A stretch of DNA of 64,000 bases from Myxococcota bacterium. GTDB lineage: Bacteria; Myxococcota_C; UBA6777. Numbering within the stretch: the stretch's first letter is position 1; the number at the start of each line of letters is the position of its first letter. Positions 4,438 to 60,540 of the stretch are shown piece after piece. The stretch is from assembly GCA_023150835.1 (NCBI GenBank), contig JAKLKB010000014.1, positions 19,770 to 83,769 on the forward strand, written 5' to 3'. Below the pieces are notes generated by a model. It saw nothing but the letters and a program-made list of their open reading frames with translations. It did no database searches and was not told the DNA's origin. Both the position numbers and the translations under genes were made by a program.

Positions 4438-5148
4438 TTGCCACGAAAAGTCGCACCTGACGATCCCACACGGATCTATCAAAACGATATCTTCGAACGT
4501 ATGTCGCGCTCGCATCCCTACGAACCCCTGTTTGCTTTTATCCCCACCATCCTTGGGCTTTCGATCTGGATGATCGGCTGGAGTCCGATGGCTTGGTATG
4601 TGAACCTTGGCTTGATTTCGATCGGCTTGTTTTATTGGACTTTTATGGAATATATGCTCCACCGCTATCTTTTCCATTACGAAGCCAAAAGCTCGATCGG
4701 CAAGCACATCATGAAGCTGATCCACGGCATCCATCACCAATTTCCCAACGACACTGATCGTCTGGTGATCCCGATCGGTGCGTCTTTTTTGTCTGCGCTC
4801 GCCTTTACGTTGATTTATTACACCCTCACAGGCGGCAACCTTTGGGCAGTTCTCCCTCTTTTCATCGGAACTGCCTCTGGGTATCTGAATTACGACTGGA
4901 CGCACTACGCAACCCATCACGTCAAACCCCGCTTCTCATGGGAAAAAACGCAGCGCCGTCGCCACATGCTCCACCACTTCAAATATCCCGATGCCTGTTT
5001 TGGCGTAAGTACGGGCTTGTGGGACTGGGTGTTTCGGACTCGCGAGATCGATGCTGAAAAAGCCGTAGCAACGGGCAAGATGCGCGCTTATCCAAGCGAA
5101 AACTGGAAGATCCTTGACAATACACCCAACCCTAGCGAACACGCATAA
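4438..5148 (+). CDS. Fatty acid hydroxylase superfamily protein (membrane di-iron)
   Basis: A 236-residue integral membrane protein of the fatty acid hydroxylase/sterol desaturase superfamily. The histidine clusters that hold the di-iron centre are all present: HRYLFH, HGIHHQFP, HYATHH and RRRHMLHHF, interspersed with about four hydrophobic segments. The arrangement (HRxxFH, then HGxHH, then HxxxHH) is closest to fatty acid 2-hydroxylases (Scs7/FA2H), so 2-hydroxylation of a lipid acyl chain is a reasonable guess, but carotenoid or sterol hydroxylation cannot be excluded. The TTG at 4438 is chosen because AGGAGG lies five bases upstream and a promoter precedes it; the next ATG is at 4501. It converges on a fatty acid desaturase gene, with two copies of the dispersed repeat filling the gap exactly from stop to stop. 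Confidence 0.82.
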   Translation: MPRKVAPDDPTRIYQNDIFERMSRSHPYEPLFAFIPTILGLSIWMIGWSPMAWYVNLGLISIGLFYWTFMEYMLHRYLFHYEAKSSIGKHIMKLIHGIHHQFPNDTDRLVIPIGASFLSALAFTLIYYTLTGGNLWAVLPLFIGTASGYLNYDWTHYATHHVKPRFSWEKTQRRRHMLHHFKYPDACFGVSTGLWDWVFRTREIDAEKAVATGKMRAYPSENWKILDNTPNPSEHA

Positions 5149-5391
5149 TACGAAATCCGCCCGTTGTGTGATCGTAAAAATGTAGGGTCAACCCCCCGTG
5201 GCTGCCCTAGAATAGGGCGGTTCGCGAACCGCCCCTACATCATGCGATCATACCTTACGCGGAGATCGTATCATACGAAATCCGCCCGTTGTGTGATCGT
5301 AAAAAGGTAGGGGCAGCCCCCTGTGGCTGCCCTAGAATAGGGCGTCTACAGCGAGTCGTGTAGACGGATCACACGTCTCTCGGATATCAGA
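5149..5391. repeat. Two tandem copies of the TACGAAATCCG dispersed element
   Basis: Copy one (5149-5271) and copy two (5274-5391), both in forward orientation. Each starts with TACGAAATCCGCCCG, carries a central hairpin (GGGCAGCC/GGCTGCCC in copy two) and ends in a variant of CGGATATCGTA. Copy one also contains the palindrome GGCGGTTCGCGAACCGCC. The left end touches the TAA of the hydroxylase and the right end touches the TAA of the opposing desaturase, so the pair fills the whole convergent intergenic space and may act as a bidirectional terminator. Confidence 0.9.
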
Positions 5392-6465
5392 TTATACGGC
5401 GACCTGCGGTGCGGTTTCAGAAACCAAAGCAGCGGGGATGGGACGTGTGCGTACACGAAGAAAGGCCATTAATTCTTCTTTGGTTCGGGAAGGTTGGCCG
5501 ACATCCACATAAATCTCTGCGAGTTTATCGTAGCGACGGAACATCAAAAGCCCCCAGACACCGACAAAATCGATCCCATGAAAAACGATCGCGTCTTCTT
5601 TCGCGTATTGATCGAGGCTTTCTTCGAATTCCACAGGAAGCTCTGTCCAATGGCGACCGGGTTTGAGATGGTGTCCGATGTGGTAGCCGTCATTAAAGCA
5701 CCGCTGGTTATAGCGGGAATTGATCGATGTAATGCTGTTGCGGTAGCAATTGGCCGGATCTGCGGGGTCAATAAAGGCGTGTTGTCCCCAATTTCCAGCC
5801 ATCATCACAAAACGGCAGATCAGAAAAGGGATGATCCAAACCACCAACGTAGCGTAAAAGTTCACAAAAGACATCGCGATCACAAAGGCATAAAAGCCCA
5901 ACTCACCAATCAACATCAAGCGCAACATTTTGAGGTGACCGCGTTTGTAGTGGTAGCGCGCCATCTCCAAGACCGAGAAAAAGAAGAAGCGCAAAAAATA
6001 GCGAAGGAAATGCAAGGGGTTGTCGCGTTCAAAGCGCATTGTAGAACTCAGGTCGTCGGGAAGATTGTTCTCGGGATGGTGCATACCGATGTGATGGGCG
6101 TAATAGGTCTCAGGCGTCTCTCCAAAAAAGGGACTCAAGACCCAAGGGATGTAGTGGTTGAGCAGCGCATAATCCCGAGTAAACAAGCGTCGATGGCTGG
6201 TGTTATGAAGCATCAAGATAAAGCGATCCATAAAGAAGAAGACGTTGAGGATCAGATACGCAGCCCCAAGCCACCAACGAAAGACACCCGGGATGTAAAG
6301 GATCGCAGCAAAGGGCAAGATCAACACGGTGGCTTGAAGGCAAAATTGCGCGAAGGGTAGATCGCGTGGATCTTTGATCATCGACAGCAAAGCCCGATCG
6401 ATGGGACCATAATGCTCTTTGGGTTCATAACGCGGATCATCGATCCGAAGGGGTGGGGTGGCCAT
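5392..6465 (-). CDS. Membrane fatty acid desaturase
   Basis: A 357-residue membrane protein of the fatty acid desaturase family. The three histidine boxes are visible: HNTSHR (after two hydrophobic segments), HHIGMHH, and the C-terminal HIGHH. These ligate the di-iron site that inserts a double bond into a lipid-bound or CoA/ACP-bound acyl chain; regiospecificity cannot be read. AGGAG stands six bases before the ATG. It is the last gene of the minus-strand run that begins with a FadR-type regulator at 10.8 kb, and its stop codon abuts the dispersed repeat. Confidence 0.83.
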   Translation of the reverse strand: MATPPLRIDDPRYEPKEHYGPIDRALLSMIKDPRDLPFAQFCLQATVLILPFAAILYIPGVFRWWLGAAYLILNVFFFMDRFILMLHNTSHRRLFTRDYALLNHYIPWVLSPFFGETPETYYAHHIGMHHPENNLPDDLSSTMRFERDNPLHFLRYFLRFFFFSVLEMARYHYKRGHLKMLRLMLIGELGFYAFVIAMSFVNFYATLVVWIIPFLICRFVMMAGNWGQHAFIDPADPANCYRNSITSINSRYNQRCFNDGYHIGHHLKPGRHWTELPVEFEESLDQYAKEDAIVFHGIDFVGVWGLLMFRRYDKLAEIYVDVGQPSRTKEELMAFLRVRTRPIPAALVSETAPQVAV

Positions 6466-19220: not shown

Positions 19221-19259
19221 CAGTCACACACAAAAACATATACTTTTTTACTCACTATC

Positions 19260-19374
19260 ACACGAAATCCGCCCGTTGCGTTATCGTAAAGAGGTAGGGG
19301 CAAACAGGTGTGGCTGCCCAAGAATCGGGCGTCTACAAACGATGCCTTGTGTACGCATCACTCGGATATCGTAA
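19260..19374. repeat. Dispersed TACGAAATCCG element, single copy
   Basis: Begins CACGAAATCCGCCCGTTG and ends CACTCGGATATCGTA, with the central GTAGGGGC...GGCTGCCC segment between. The hairpin is partly decayed (CAAACAGG replaces CAGCCCCC). It lies between the sigma-like gene and its terminator. Confidence 0.85.
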
Positions 19375-23119: not shown

Positions 23120-23350
23120 ATGAAACAACTGAAACGCCATCAACTCGCTCTCTACAACGGACAAGACAAAAAGCAGATCTATGTCGCCTATCAAGGCCGC
23201 ATCTACGATGTCACCGAAAGCCGACTCTGGCGACGCGGGATGCACTACGAGCATTGGGCCGGACAAGATCTCACCCAAGAACTCCCCGAAGCCCCTCACG
23301 ACGAAGCCGTCTTTGCACGCTTCCCGCAGGTCGGCGTTCTGATCGAATAA
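23120..23350 (+). CDS. Small cytochrome b5-like haem/steroid-binding protein
   Basis: 76 residues forming one cytochrome b5-like fold: QLALYNGQDKKQIYVAYQGRIYDVTES, then GMHYEHWAGQDLTQEL and APHDEAVFARFPQVGVL. The HYEHWAGQDLT and APHxxxV-FPxVG segments are the signature of the predicted haem/steroid-binding group. The protein has no signal or membrane segment. It probably binds haem or a hydrophobic ligand in the cytosol. Its TAA stop is immediately followed by the dispersed element, and a 26-bp tandem duplication includes the stop codon. Confidence 0.82.
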   Translation: MKQLKRHQLALYNGQDKKQIYVAYQGRIYDVTESRLWRRGMHYEHWAGQDLTQELPEAPHDEAVFARFPQVGVLIE

Positions 23351-23499
23351 TACGAAATCCGCCCGTTATCGAATAATACGAAATCCGCCCGTTGTGTGAT
23401 CGTAAAGATGTACGGAGCTGCCCCTCGTGGCTGCCCAAAAACAGGACGATCACAGCGGATCACACCTACCCTTCGATCACAGATCTTTCGGATATCGTC
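23351..23499. repeat. Dispersed element with duplicated left end
   Basis: A 26-bp segment (23345-23370), covering the last codons of the upstream gene, its TAA and the left end of the element, is repeated exactly at 23371-23396, after which the full element continues to GGATATCGTCT at 23499. The central hairpin is degraded (GGAGCTGCCCCTCGTGGCTGCCC). Confidence 0.85.
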
Positions 23500-23526
23500 T
23501 AAGCTCGTATCGATCAGTCTTTTCGT

Positions 23527-36174: not shown

Positions 36175-36186
36175 GATAGAACTTAG

Positions 36187-36568
36187 ACGAAATCCGAGTG
36201 ATGTACACAACGAAGAAGAGTGCGGATTTCGCCCTATTCTTGGGCAGCCACAGGGGGCTGCCCCTACATTCTTACGATCACACACCCTGCGGATTCCGCC
36301 CTATTCTTGGGCAGCCACAGGGGGCTGCCCCACCATTCTTACGATCACACACTCTGCGGATTTCGCCCTATTCTTGGGCAGCCACAGGGGGCTACCCCAC
36401 CATTTTTACGATCACACACTCTGCGGATTTCGCCCTATTCTTGGGCAGCCACAGGGGGCTGCCCCTACATTTTACGATCACACACCCTGCGGATTTCGCC
36501 CTATTCTTGGGCAGCCACAGGGGGCTGCCCCTACATTTTTACGATCACACACCCTGCGGATTTCGTAT
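36187..36568. repeat. Inverted-orientation dispersed element amplified as a 67-bp array
   Basis: Starts with the element's right end in reverse (GACGAAATCCGAGTGATG), then five 67-bp tandem units with starts of GCGGATTTCG at 36222, 36289, 36356, 36423 and 36489, and a terminal copy at 36556 ending TTTCGTA. Each unit holds the GGGCAGCC/GGCTGCCC hairpin. Units differ by single bases. The array begins 13 bp after the lipoprotein stop codon. Confidence 0.92.
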
Positions 36569-36584
36569 CACGCATTTGGACACG

Positions 36585-36638
36585 TTTTGTGGGGTGTCAC
36601 CCCACGCCCTACAAGGGAGATCGGCTCCCTTGACCCTG
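36585..36638. repeat. Paired-hairpin repeat, family 2, copy 2
   Basis: TTTTGTGGGGTG-TC-ACCCCAC followed by GCCCTACAAGGGAG-ATCGG-CTCCCTTGACCC. Two hairpins, 15 bp after the end of the 67-bp array and just before the helicase stop codon, a location suitable for termination in both directions. Confidence 0.75.
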
Positions 36639-36659
36639 TGTTTGGCTCGGCTGTTTACT

Positions 36660-54698: not shown

Positions 54699-55133
54699 GG
54701 GTAAGTAGACAAGGTGATCGCTGGTGAGCTTTCCTCCCTCTGGGAGGAAGTTTGCGAGAGGAAAGTCCGAACTCCACAGGGCAGCGTGCTGGTTAACGGC
54801 CAGTGAGGGTGACCTCAAGGAAAGTGCCACAGAAAACAAACCGCCTGACTCGGTGTCTTTGGCTTGCCCCCAACCTCCCCCGGAGGAAGGGAACACCCAG
54901 TCGGTAAGGGCGAAACGGTGGGGTAAGAGCCCACCGGATCTCTGGTAACAGCGATCGCAGGGTAAACCCCACGCGGAGCAAAACCAAGAAGGAGGTGAGT
55001 GACCCGCTCGATACCTCCGGGTTGGTTGCGTGTCGCTTTGGCAACAAAGCGCGGAGTCGACCAGCAATGGCCGACCTAGAAGAATGATCGCCACCCCTCG
55101 GGGTACAAAATTCGGCTTATCGCTCTACTTTCC
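54699..55133 (+). ncRNA. rnpB: RNase P RNA (bacterial type A)
   Basis: The catalytic RNA that trims tRNA 5' ends. Conserved blocks in order: GAGGAAAGTCCGAACTCC, GGGCAG...GCTGGTTAACGGCCAG, AAGGAAAGTGCCACAGAAA, GGTAAGGGCGAAACGGTGG, GTAAGAGCCCACCG, GGGTAAACCCCACGCGGAGC and the 3' TTCGGCTTATCG. Helix P1 pairs GGGTAAGTAGA (54699-54709) with TCTACTTTCCC (55123-55133) with one mismatch, which sets the ends. About 435 nt long, slightly over the usual 380-400. Confidence 0.95.
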
Positions 55134-55136
55134 CAA

Positions 55137-56187: not shown

Positions 56188-59100
56188 ATGAAACACACCA
56201 GCCATCCCCAACCCCTGCCCACCGCGTGGCCACCCACCCAACGCTTGCGCTTTGTCACCGCAGCCAGCCTCTTCGATGGACACGACGCCGCCATCAATAT
56301 CATGCGCCGCATCCTCCAATCCGAAGGGGCCGAAGTCATCCACCTCGGACATGACCGCTCCGTCGCCGAGATCGTCTCCGCCGCCATCGAAGAAGATGCA
56401 CACGGCATCGCTGTGTCTTCCTATCAAGGCGGACACATGGAGTATTTCGCTTATATGGTGCAGCTTCTCGCCGAACGCGGACGCCCTGACCTCCCCGTCT
56501 TTGGCGGCGGTGGCGGCACCATCACCGACAAAGAGATCGCCACCCTCCACAGCCAAGGCGTCAACAAGATCTATTCGGTCGAGGATGGCCGTCGCCTCGG
56601 ACTCGTCGGCATGATCCGCGATATGATGATCCGCGCTGACCGCGATCTGCTCGCCAAACAACAAGCCCTCCCACTCGGACTCTTCGACCGCATCACCCCC
56701 GATGTCGCACGCACCCTTACTTGGCTCGAATCCCTCCACCACCAATCCGCAGAAGGCGATGCCTCCGCCACTCAACGCCTCCACGATCTCCGCACACAGC
56801 TCCAAGCCTCGCCTCACAAAGCCCCCATCCTCGGCATCACCGGCACTGGCGGCGCTGGAAAGTCCTCTCTCACCGATGAACTGATCCGACGGATGCTCGA
56901 AACCTACCCCGACCGCAACTTCGCCATCCTCTCCGTCGACCCCACCCGACGACGCACTGGCGGCGCACTCCTCGGCGACCGCATCCGCATGAATGCCGTC
57001 TCTTCCCCTCGCGTCTTTATGCGCTCTATGGCCACCCGACAAGCCAATACCGCCGTCTCTTCCGCCGTCCGTGACGCTCTCCATGCACTCCAAGCCGCTC
57101 GCTTCGACTTGATCATCCTCGAAACCGCTGGCATCGGACAAAGCGATAGCGCCGTCGTCGACCTCTGTGACTTCTCCATGTACGTCATGACCCCCGAATT
57201 CGGCGCTCCCACCCAGCTTGAAAAGATCGACATGCTCGACTTTGCCGATGTCATCGCCATCAACAAAGCCGATAAACGCGGAGCCGACGATGCCCACCGC
57301 TACGTCGCCAAACAAGTCCAACGCAACCGCAGCGCCTTTGACCGCACCCCCGAAGAGATGCCCGTCTTCTCCTGTATCGCCAGTCACTTCGGCGACGCAG
57401 GCGTCGATGCCCTCTTCCTGCATCTCATGAAACGGATCGACACCCAACGCGGAAACTGGAACCCGGGCGAACCCCAATGGCGCGCACCCGAAACCCAAGT
57501 CGTCCTCCCACCCAAACGCATCCGCTACCTCTCCGAGATCGCCGACAGCGTCCGAAACTACAAAAAACGCGGCGCAGCCGAAGCCGAAAAACTTCACCGC
57601 GCTGACGGCCTATTTCGCTCTCTCCAAGAACTCGGCGATCCCACCCCTCCCCTCGCCACTCCCTACCCCCAACACCAACTCTCCACCCCCAACACCGATC
57701 CCGCGATCCTCCTGCTTCGACAACGCTATAACGCACTCCTATCCGAGATATCCAACGAAGCCCTCTCCCTCTTGCGCGAAACCCCCGCCCTCCAAAAATC
57801 CTTCCGCGATGACGAAAACATCTATACCGTCCGAGGCCGCGAGATCCGCGTCCAAAACTACACCCAAACCCTCTCACACAACCGCATCCCCAAAGTCGCC
57901 CTCCCCCACTCCCAAGACTGGGCCTCTCTCTTCTCTTGGCGATGGCTTGAAAATATCCCCGGCTCCTTCCCCTTTACCGCTGGCGTCTTCCCCTACAAAC
58001 GCACCGGCGAAGACCCCGCCCGTATGTTCGCTGGCGAAGGCGGCCCCGAACGCACCAACAAACGCTTTCACTACCTCTCCAAAGGACAACCCGCTTCCCG
58101 CCTCTCCACCGCCTTTGACTCCGTCACACTCTACGGACGCGATCCCGCCAAACGACCCGACGTCTACGGCAAAGTCGGAAACTCTGGCGTCTCCGTACCC
58201 ACCCTCGATGACGCAAAACGCCTCTACTCCGGCTTCGATCTGTGTTCCCCCAAAACCAGCGTCTCCATGACCATCAACGGACCCGCACCCATCCTCCTCG
58301 CCATGTTCCTCAATACCGCCATCGATCAACAAGTCGAACAACGTCTCAAATCCTCCGGTCGATGGCCCGAAGCTCAACAAAAGATCGCTCAACTCGCCCC
58401 CGATCTCCCTTCCTACCGCTCCACCCAACTCCCCGAAGGTCACGACGGCCAAGGTCTCGGACTCCTCGGCGTCTCTGGCGATCAACTCCTCTCCCCCGAA
58501 GAATACGCCGAGATCCGCGCCTGCACCCTCGAACAAGTCCGTGGCACCGTCCAAGCCGATATCCTCAAAGAAGACCAAGCCCAAAATACCTGCATCTTCT
58601 CCACCGACTTTGCCCTCAAAATGATGGGCGATATCCAGTCCTACTTCATCTCCCACAAGATCCAAAACTTCTACTCCGTCTCCGTCTCCGGCTACCATAT
58701 CGCCGAAGCCGGCGCAAACCCCATCTCCCAACTCGCCTTCACCCTCGCCAACGGCTTCACTTTCGCCGAATACTACCGCGCTCGCGGCATGAACGTCGAT
58801 GACTTCGCCCGCAACTTCTCCTTCTTCTTTAGCAACGGTATCGACCCCGAATACTCCGTCATCGGCCGCGTCGCCCGCCGCATCTGGGCCGTCGCCATGC
58901 GCGATCTCTACGGCGCAAACGAACGCTCTCAACAACTCAAATACCACATCCAAACCTCTGGCCGATCCCTACACGCCCAAGAGATCGCCTTCAACGATAT
59001 CCGCACCACCCTCCAAGCCCTCTACGCCATGGCCGATAACTGCAACTCCCTCCACACCAACGCCTACGACGAAGCCATCACCACCCCCACCGAAGAATCC

Positions 59101-59640
59101 GTCCGCCGCGCTCTCGCTATCCAACTCATCCTCTCCCGCGAATTCGGACTCCTCAAAAACGAAAACCCCAACCAAGGCGCCTACATCATCGAATACCTCA
59201 CCGAGATCGTCGAAGAAGCCGTCCTCGCCGAATTCGACCGCATCACCGAACGCGGCGGCGTTCTCGGTGCCATGGAACTCATGTACCAACGCTCCAAGAT
59301 CCAAGAAGAATCCCTCTACTACGAAACCAAAAAACACAACGGCGAACTCCCCATCGTCGGCGTCAACACCTTCCTCGATCCCCACGCCTCCGACGGCGTC
59401 GTCGAGATCGAACTCGCCCGCTCCACCGACTCCGAAAAAGAGACCCAGATATCCGGCGTCGCTGCCTTCCAATCCCGAAACGCCTACCGCTCTCCACTCG
59501 CCCTCTCCCAACTCAAAAAAGTCGCCCTCGAAGGCGGCAACCTCTTCGACGAACTCATGCAATCCGTCAAATCCTGCTCCCTCGGTCAAATCACCCAAGC
59601 CCTCTTTGAAGTCGGCGGACAATATCGACGCAACATGTAA
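56188..59640 (+). CDS. icmF: Fused isobutyryl-CoA mutase with MeaI-type GTPase
   Basis: 1150 residues in the order cobalamin-binding domain, P-loop GTPase, mutase. B12 domain: [43 protein letters not shown] (residues 20-135), with the cobalt-binding His in DGHDAAI. GTPase: [19 protein letters not shown] (Walker A, about 215-233), [41 protein letters not shown]. Mutase: [62 protein letters not shown]. It interconverts isobutyryl-CoA and butyryl-CoA, while the GTPase safeguards cofactor loading. Its TAA is directly followed by the dispersed repeat. Confidence 0.95.
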
Positions 59641-59754
59641 TACGAAATCCGCCTGTAGCGTGATCCTAAAACGTAGGGGCAGCCCCCTGTGGCTGCCCAA
59701 GGATAGGGCGCATGGGCGCTCTCCTTCGATCATAGATCACTCGGATATCGTATA
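59641..59754. repeat. Dispersed element directly after the icmF stop codon
   Basis: Starts TACGAAATCCGCC on the base after TAA and ends CACTCGGATATCGTATA. The central hairpin GTAGGGGCAGCC-CCCTGT-GGCTGCCC is intact. Confidence 0.9.
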
Positions 59755-59757
59755 ACC

Positions 59758-59847
59758 TTTTTTGTGGGGAGTCTTTTTTTGTGGGGGGTCTTTTTTTGTG
59801 GGGTTCTACCCCACACCCCGCAAGGGAGCGCGGCTCCCTTGACCCCG
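59758..59847. repeat. Paired-hairpin repeat, family 2, copy 3, with amplified head
   Basis: The TTTTTTGTGGGG head occurs three times at 16-17-bp spacing (59758, 59774, 59791) before the full unit: GTGGGGTT-CT-ACCCCAC and GGGAGC-GCG-GCTCCC, ending TTGACCCCG. Confidence 0.8.
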
Positions 59848-59977
59848 TATCGGCGAAGAGAGCACAGGTTTTTCAAACAAATGACTCTGTCGCTTGAAGT
59901 ACCGCGAACACGGGGTTTTTTTTTGCACGTTGCCCCCACACACACCACGGCACATAGCCCACGTGGGCGGAGGCTTA

Positions 59978-60221
59978 TACGAAATCCGCTCATTGCGTAC
60001 ACGGAAAACGTAGGGGCAGCCCCCCGTGGCTGCCCAAGGACAGGGCGTCTACAGCGGATCGCATCTACCCTTCGATCACACTTCTCTTGGATAGGACTTA
60101 CGCAGTCCGAGACGAAAAAGGCCCATGTTCGGGCGTGGACGGTTCGCGAACCGCCCCTACAACGTTCTGATATCTCAGGGTTTCCCTTTTCAACTGCGTA
60201 AGTCCTATTGGATTTCGTATT
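59978..60221. repeat. Dispersed element interrupted by a MITE
   Basis: Left end TACGAAATCCGCTC at 59978, hairpin GGGGCAGCC-CCCCGT-GGCTGCCC, then CTTCTCTTGG at 60081-60090 where the 118-bp insert begins. After the insert the element resumes with TGGATTTCGTAT. Removing the insert with one TGG copy restores a right end like those of the other copies (CGGATATCGTAT). Confidence 0.85.
60091..60208. mobile_element. 118-bp MITE-like element with perfect 16-bp terminal inverted repeats
   Basis: ATAGGACTTACGCAGT at 60091-60106 and its exact reverse complement ACTGCGTAAGTCCTAT at 60193-60208. Flanked by TGG on both sides, a possible 3-bp target duplication. The interior carries GGACGGTTCGCGAACCGCCCC, also found inside the copy at 5149, and no coding capacity. 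Non-autonomous; no matching transposase in the window. Confidence 0.8.
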
Positions 60222-60231
60222 ACAGGAGTAA

Positions 60232-60343
60232 TACGAAATCCGCCCACAGCGTGATCGCAAGATGTAGGGGCAGCCCCCTGTGGCTGCCCTATTACAGGGC
60301 GTCTACGCACTATTCTTCGTGTACATCACTCGGATATCGTATA
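60232..60343. repeat. Dispersed element, intact copy
   Basis: Starts TACGAAATCCGCCCAC, preceded by TAA though no gene ends here, and ends CACTCGGATATCGTATA. The hairpin is intact. The stretch 60344-60540 down to the PEGA gene stop shows nothing else. Confidence 0.9.
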
Positions 60344-60540
60344 AATACTAGTTGACAGAGAGTACAAAACGCGAAATAGGCAGATGGCGATGTTCTTCCC
60401 CCTCTGCCCCCTCGCGGCAGCAGCGAGGCTTTGCGAGCATCGCAGGGAGAGGGGACGCCCGAAGGGCAGGGGTGAGGGTGAGACGGGTTGTACTCTTTCT
60501 GTAAACGAAGGAGAGCGTCAAAGACCGATGCAGGCGTTTT

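Follow-up and report, generated by a model that had tools for sequence, protein, structure and literature searches.

The window, a stretch of 64,000 nucleotides (G000:C132:19770-83769), belongs to a 7.56-Mb assembly of an uncultured Myxococcota bacterium which consists of 239 contigs and is 93% complete. Near its beginning a fatty-acid-hydroxylase gene and a desaturase gene converge, and the gap between their stop codons is occupied by a dispersed repeat that is met at several further places, among others behind a cytochrome-b5-like and an icmF-like gene (these gene names are those of an earlier note made from the sequence only). The original prediction had drawn attention to a TAA directly before the left end of the repeat at three gene stops, and this is correct: TAA is followed at once by TACGAAATCCG at 5146-5148, 23348-23350 and 59638-59640, each TAA being the stop of a called gene. 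It had rightly placed the right end at 5391 against the TAA of the opposing desaturase, and a TAA before the copy at 60232, where no gene ends. The other copies of the window are preceded by TCA (5271, 19258), TTA (59975) or TGA (36570-36568, minus strand), so that TAA is one case of TNA. The features are as follows (an asterisk in a protein sequence marks the stop).

5146..5148, plus: TAA, which ends the fatty-acid-hydroxylase gene (4438-5148) and is also a copy of the TNA target; the sister genome has the identical stop and C-terminus (NPSEHA*)
5149..5270, plus: copy A, 122 bp, long type, right end CGGAGATCGTA; HMM 87.5 bits
5271..5273, no strand: TCA, the TNA triplet separating tandem copies A and B
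5274..5391, plus: copy B, 118 bp, with a decayed right end, CGGATATCAGA; HMM 96.9 bits
5392..5394, minus: plus-strand TTA, read as TAA where the convergent desaturase gene (5392-6465, minus) stops
19258..19260, no strand: TCA, left TNA of the copy at 19261
19261..19373, plus: copy with left end CACGAAATCCG; HMM 97.9 bits
23348..23350, plus: TAA, which closes the cytochrome-b5-like gene (23120-23350) and is also a copy of the TNA target; the sister orthologue ends at this codon with TAG and lacks the element
23351..23376, plus: 26-bp tandem duplication comprising the left end and its TAA
23377..23499, plus: copy with right end CGGATATCGTC, then TAA (23500-23502); HMM 88.0 bits
36186..36567, minus: copy enlarged by internal duplication to about five tandem units of 66/67 bp; flanks TTA (36183-36185) and TCA (36568-36570)
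59638..59640, plus: TAA, stop of the icmF-like gene (56188-59640) and left target copy; in the sister genome an empty site with a single TNA, ATG-TGA-CCTTTTTT
59641..59752, plus: copy of 112 bp, TAA on both sides (59638-59640, 59753-59755); HMM 99.4 bits
59978..60219, plus: copy flanked by TTA left and right (59975-59977, 60220-60222), broken by a different MITE close to its right end
60232..60341, plus: copy of 110 bp between two TAA triplets (60229-60231, 60342-60344), not at a gene end; HMM 103.3 bits

The stretch 5149-5391 is thus composed of two tandem copies, TAA-[5149-5270]-TCA-[5274-5391]-TTA, which touch both convergent stops; the sister genome keeps the desaturase stop, preceded there by a remnant of the right end, CGGCTATCGTA. 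At the cytochrome-b5-like locus the left end at 23350 is a local duplication and the full copy begins at 23377; the 26-bp tandem duplication (ATCGAATAATACGAAATCCGCCCGTT, window 23325-23376) repeats the gene end, the TAA stop and the left end of the element. The second MITE, nested at 60094-60208 in the copy 59978-60219, has 15-bp ends (TAGGACTTACGCAGT...ACTGCGTAAGTCCTA) and a 5-bp duplication, TTGGA; its end sequence also interrupts a copy in the sister genome (L124).

Ends, target triplet and empty sites

Around the copies about 1.44 Mb of the own genome (G000) and 0.51 Mb of a sister genome of the same genus (G001) were examined. A profile built from 141 oriented copies gave 384 non-redundant matches; 204 of them, 158 in the own genome and 46 in the sister, are full length and have flanks. 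As expected of miniature elements (MITEs), the repeat is short, non-coding and dispersed in many copies, with 322 profile matches in the 1.44 Mb of the own genome. The full copies cluster at 112-113 and 120-122 bp (overall about 105-123 bp), which sets the length at 113 or about 121 bp. The terminal inverted repeats are of 11 bp and imperfect, TACGAAATCCG...CGGATATCGTA (TACGAAATCCG / TACGATATCCG), with a left-end consensus TACGAWATCCG; in the 204 copies the information content exceeds 1 bit at all 11 end positions on either side, as befits the inverted repeats of a MITE. The core is GC-rich. In some copies the central hairpin is inverted, GGGGCAGCCACAGGGGGCTGCCC replacing GGGGCAGCCCCCTGTGGCTGCCC (for example G001:C41:142-254 and G001:C372:19123-19234), and many have GACAGGTGT where the central hairpin otherwise has CCCCCTGT.

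Of the 204 full copies 151 have a TNA triplet on the left, 157 have one on the right and 127 are flanked by TNA at either end; the two triplets agree in 90 of these 127 pairs, where 25% would be expected (p=2.6e-27). Flank identity has a sharp limit, extending over 3 bp in 97 copies and over 4 bp in one. The repeat therefore has a 3-bp TNA target-site duplication, and the element proper begins with TACG, not with TAATACG as had been proposed. The middle base of the triplet is nearly uniform (each letter 0.19-0.31; on the left side A 0.22, C 0.31, G 0.25, T 0.22), TGA is the commonest identical duplication overall, and the surrounding target is weakly palindromic, about S-G-N-V-TNA-B-N-C-S. The alternative suggestion, that the element targets TAA sites, was sound in assigning the flanking bases to the target but too narrow in the triplet, since any TNA is used and duplicated and TAA stands directly before only 33 of the 204 copies. 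In 37 of the 127 pairs the triplets differ in N, which probably results from mutation and from recombination between tandem copies.

At least six loci, to which the icmF-like site of the window comes in addition, are filled in one of the two genomes and empty in the other, with TNA-element-TNA against a single TNA, for example (filled site first, length of the element in brackets):

CTGA[112]TGACTTG against CTAACTTG
GGAGCTTA[121]TTACCGA against GGAGCTTACCGA
GGTGTGA[122]TGACGCC against GGTGTGACGCC
GCGTAA[113]TAAGTC against GCGTAAGTC
GAATAA[112]TAAGCGAG against GAATAAGCGAG, at a stop codon
CATGTAA[112]TAACCTTTTTT against CATGTGACCTTTTTT in the sister genome, at the icmF-like gene of the window

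A duplication of fixed length and a precise insertion, evident from the empty orthologous sites, are further marks of a MITE, and the earlier view of a mobile palindromic element is well founded (inverted repeats, TNA duplication, empty sites in the sister). The sequence TACGAAATCCGCCC occurs 159 times in the own genome and its reversed control not once. Ends of the form TNA+TACGAWATCCG number 464 genome-wide in the own genome and 129 in the sister (control 0), and in the other genomes of the same family examined there is one in G003 and none in G002 and G004. Among 84,980 species scanned, in a scan that may omit the own genome, the pair of inverted repeats was met only in the MAG KLAP109, also of Myxococcota. 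This is a new MITE family, restricted to one genus of Myxococcota, with TNA target duplication, and it behaves like other MITEs.

Genes around the copies and the stop codons

Genes were called with a simple dicodon caller (1318 genes, 84% coding), which recovers the three stops from which the analysis started. None of the 204 copies lies inside a called gene, though 83% of TNA sites are coding; the figure is approximate, because a gene split by a copy could escape the caller. The surviving copies are intergenic, mostly at gene 3' ends, often between convergent genes, and about one fifth sit exactly on a stop. Convergent gene pairs hold 45% of the copies against 17% of noncoding TNA, and divergent gaps hold 10% against 26%, a low share that fits removal from promoter regions.

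The best explanation, whose observed part comprises TNA on both sides, its duplication, the single TNA at empty orthologous sites and the absence from genes, is that the repeat is very probably a non-autonomous DNA transposon (MITE) which inserts at TNA, duplicates 3 bp and leaves the gene intact when it hits a stop codon. Such an element enters any TNA triplet in a weakly palindromic context. TAA and TGA, and on the other strand TTA and TCA, belong to these triplets, so that a stop codon is among the targets, and a hit there does the gene no harm, since after duplication a stop remains on its side. Selection presumably removes insertions into coding DNA, as the absence of copies from genes suggests. 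One rule then explains the coincidence: a TNA-targeting, TNA-duplicating transposon has the TAA and TGA stops of either strand among its coding-neutral targets, and its fit to stop codons follows from the TNA target together with selection against coding hits. The same effect is to be expected of any TNA-duplicating element, for example the IS1031-group elements and their MITEs, and TNA elements that abut stops should not be taken as evidence of stop-codon targeting or gene trimming. In a literature search no account of a TNA-target MITE sitting on stop codons was found.

A gene stop is abutted by 40 of the 204 copies (gene ends TAA 34, TGA 7, TAG 1), and the distance is 0 at 42 of 264 flanking 3' gene ends. 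Set against all intergenic TNA, 8.7% of which lie on stops, this share is high (Fisher p=1e-6), and with the 34:7 skew of TAA to TGA it might speak for a transposase that targets stop codons specifically, beyond its preference for TNA; such targeting is nevertheless very improbable. The 2.6-fold excess over this coarse null was set aside: it falls to 1.5-fold (40 seen, about 26 expected) on matching gene orientation only and vanishes when gap length is matched as well, with 35 seen against 33.6 expected in element-free gaps (P=0.41, matched subset). Drawing TNA sites at random in the same gaps gives 36 seen against 32.7 expected (P=0.25), in a null that includes the observed site and is thereby conservative, which does not apply to the element-free gaps. 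At TGA stops there is no excess, although TGA leads among the identical duplications. The coincidence of TNA with the ends is far beyond chance, yet the stop-codon share is the one expected from TNA sites in comparable noncoding gaps. The simplest reading is that stop codons exert no specific attraction; it does not account for a mild skew of TAA to TGA (29:5 against 20:13 expected in the matched null).

It had also been proposed that TAA is part of the element's end, so that an insertion brings a stop codon with it and trims the host gene, a view which several copies with TAA directly before them, and the 7 of 204 into which a called gene runs and stops inside (tails such as IRNPPVA* or YEIRP*), would favour. 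This is hardly credible. The triplet is TNA with a free N, the empty sites already have TNA, and all 22 stop-abutting gene ends of the own genome with an orthologue in the sister stop there at the same codon, so that the expected shortening of host C-termini relative to element-free orthologues is not seen. The orthologue is without the element at the stop in 20 of the 22 cases (two of these, L088 and L050, may hold short remnants) and without any element within 300 nt in 18; at L083 and L141 the element lies at the same stop in both genomes. Four more loci agree on the stop position (L063:15001, L131:11410, L121:13782, L139:5292), as does the window locus. Since the orthologues keep the stop at the same codon, 18 of them with no element nearby, the stops are older than the insertions, and trimming of host genes is excluded as a rule. 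At stop-abutting copies with the partner triplet CAA the creation of a stop by C-to-T change was considered and rejected, because L079, the only clean case for which an orthologue exists, shows TAA at its empty site; these triplets are read as decay of an unconstrained target copy.

The seven read-in copies are the exception to the rule. The stops they supply lie mostly 12-27 nt inside the element, and the three genes compared with the sister genome have a lengthened or replaced tail, none a trimmed one:

...DYDIIRNPPVA* against ...DYNIAL* in the sister
...KAPEYEIRP* against ...KAP* in the sister; left triplet GAA where the orthologue has its TAA stop
...GGVIRNPPIV* against ...GKSSRVGD* in the sister

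Near-identical tails encoded by the element, IIRNPPVA*, VIRNPPIV* and VIRNAPVV*, occur in three genes in one phase from the left end (L090:6924-6946, L146:5726-5748, L113:5554-5576). A broader reading, in which TAA stops are preferred or selectively retained (29 against 20, with TGA 5 against 13) and the element, through tails of the ...IRNPP[IV]V* type, shapes gene 3' ends genome-wide, is regarded as unlikely. For an uncultured genus of Myxococcota the collection provides filled and empty sites as a clean natural set, together with a few clear cases of element-encoded C-terminal tails.

Folding and the terminator question

The original prediction went on to a domesticated bidirectional terminator, that is, copies kept at gene ends because they stop transcription from both sides. 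The excess of copies between convergent genes agrees with it, single copies fold stably (z about -3 to -4), and two score terminator-like on the minus strand; like intrinsic terminators, the MITE has a hairpin rich in GC (GGGCAGCC...GGCTGCCC) and, on one strand, a T-run. This function is still quite unlikely. A run of at least four T after the stem is present on the minus strand in 65 of 144 copies and on the plus strand in none of 177, and unlike that of a true terminator it is variable and not conserved. The paired fraction (0.860 and 0.841) and the compensatory cells on the consensus structure were about those of shuffled columns, so no covariation was seen, and hardly any consensus structure came out of RNAalifold when all copies were supplied. 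Of 84 copies in codirectional gaps 53 share the strand of the genes (p=0.02, uncorrected), so that the T-run strand faces upstream transcription more rarely (31 against 53). The strong folding is due to the terminal inverted repeats with the internal hairpin, as in any MITE, and selection against hitting promoters and operons would give the convergent bias. A RAYT-type REP/REPIN or a structural RNA repeat would likewise be palindromic, intergenic and present in hundreds of copies, and has to be judged most improbable: REP/REPIN elements are characterised by the lack of a target-site duplication, whereas here the 3-bp duplication is clear, constant in length and sequence and matched by precise empty sites, which is the signature of a DDE transposon, and none of the window's copies has a match in Rfam.

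Mobilisation and related elements

The MITE was probably mobilised in trans by a DDE transposase whose target behaviour resembled that of IS5/IS1031 and which has since been lost or is absent from the assembly. No transposase was found between matching ends in the approximately 1.94 Mb examined (assembly 93% complete, 239 contigs), and long pairs of inverted repeats with a gene inside enclosed only ordinary genes (sigma-54 activator, TerC, HAD, LRR) or genes without a Pfam match. Among matches to PF01609, PF13340, PF13359 and PF13586 none has the ends of this MITE, in an assembly that is incomplete; of the IS5-type profiles PF13340 gave no match and PF13586 one decayed remnant with different ends, in a search that was not exhaustive.

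The IS1031 group of IS5 (for example ISLrh) inserts at 5'-TNA-3' with an exclusive 3-bp direct repeat (PMC12016507), and the MITE shares this duplication. In contrast to its ends, TACGAWATCCG, the inverted repeats of ISLrh begin with GAACCTG (group type GA...), and on account of these ends the MITE is not filed in the group; no transposase is linked to it. Correia/NEMIS, RUP and ERIC are bacterial MITEs of less than 200 bp, typically with 5'-TA-3' at their ends and A+T-rich (PMC2229807). The present family resembles them in being short, non-coding and mostly intergenic, with terminal inverted repeats, target duplications and high copy number, and differs in its 3-bp TNA duplication, in place of a TA-only target, and its GC-rich core. 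The type II MITEs of Anabaena sp. 90 are many small elements, mostly intergenic, with no matching IS in the genome (PMC3542288); by description they are likewise small, intergenic and partnerless, in a host of a different phylum.

Directly beside a MITE copy in L173 (1463-1880) there is a decayed IS with IS5-like ends GAGGGTGTTTGCGAAAAAGTG / CACTTTTTCGCAAACACCCTC (also GAGGGTGTTTGCGAAA) and TTA on both flanks. Because its ends are different, it points to the IS5 family for the mechanism without placing the MITE there. Another dispersed repeat, TTTTGTGGGGTG...ACCCCACGCCC...CAAGGGAG...CCCTTGACCC, lies in the window at 36585-36639 and 59794-59848, and a related sequence in L173 occurs at no fewer than 40 places in each of the two genomes, own and sister. 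Finally, the window carries a bacterial RNase P class A RNA at 54702-55135 (Rfam RF00010, 262.6 bits).
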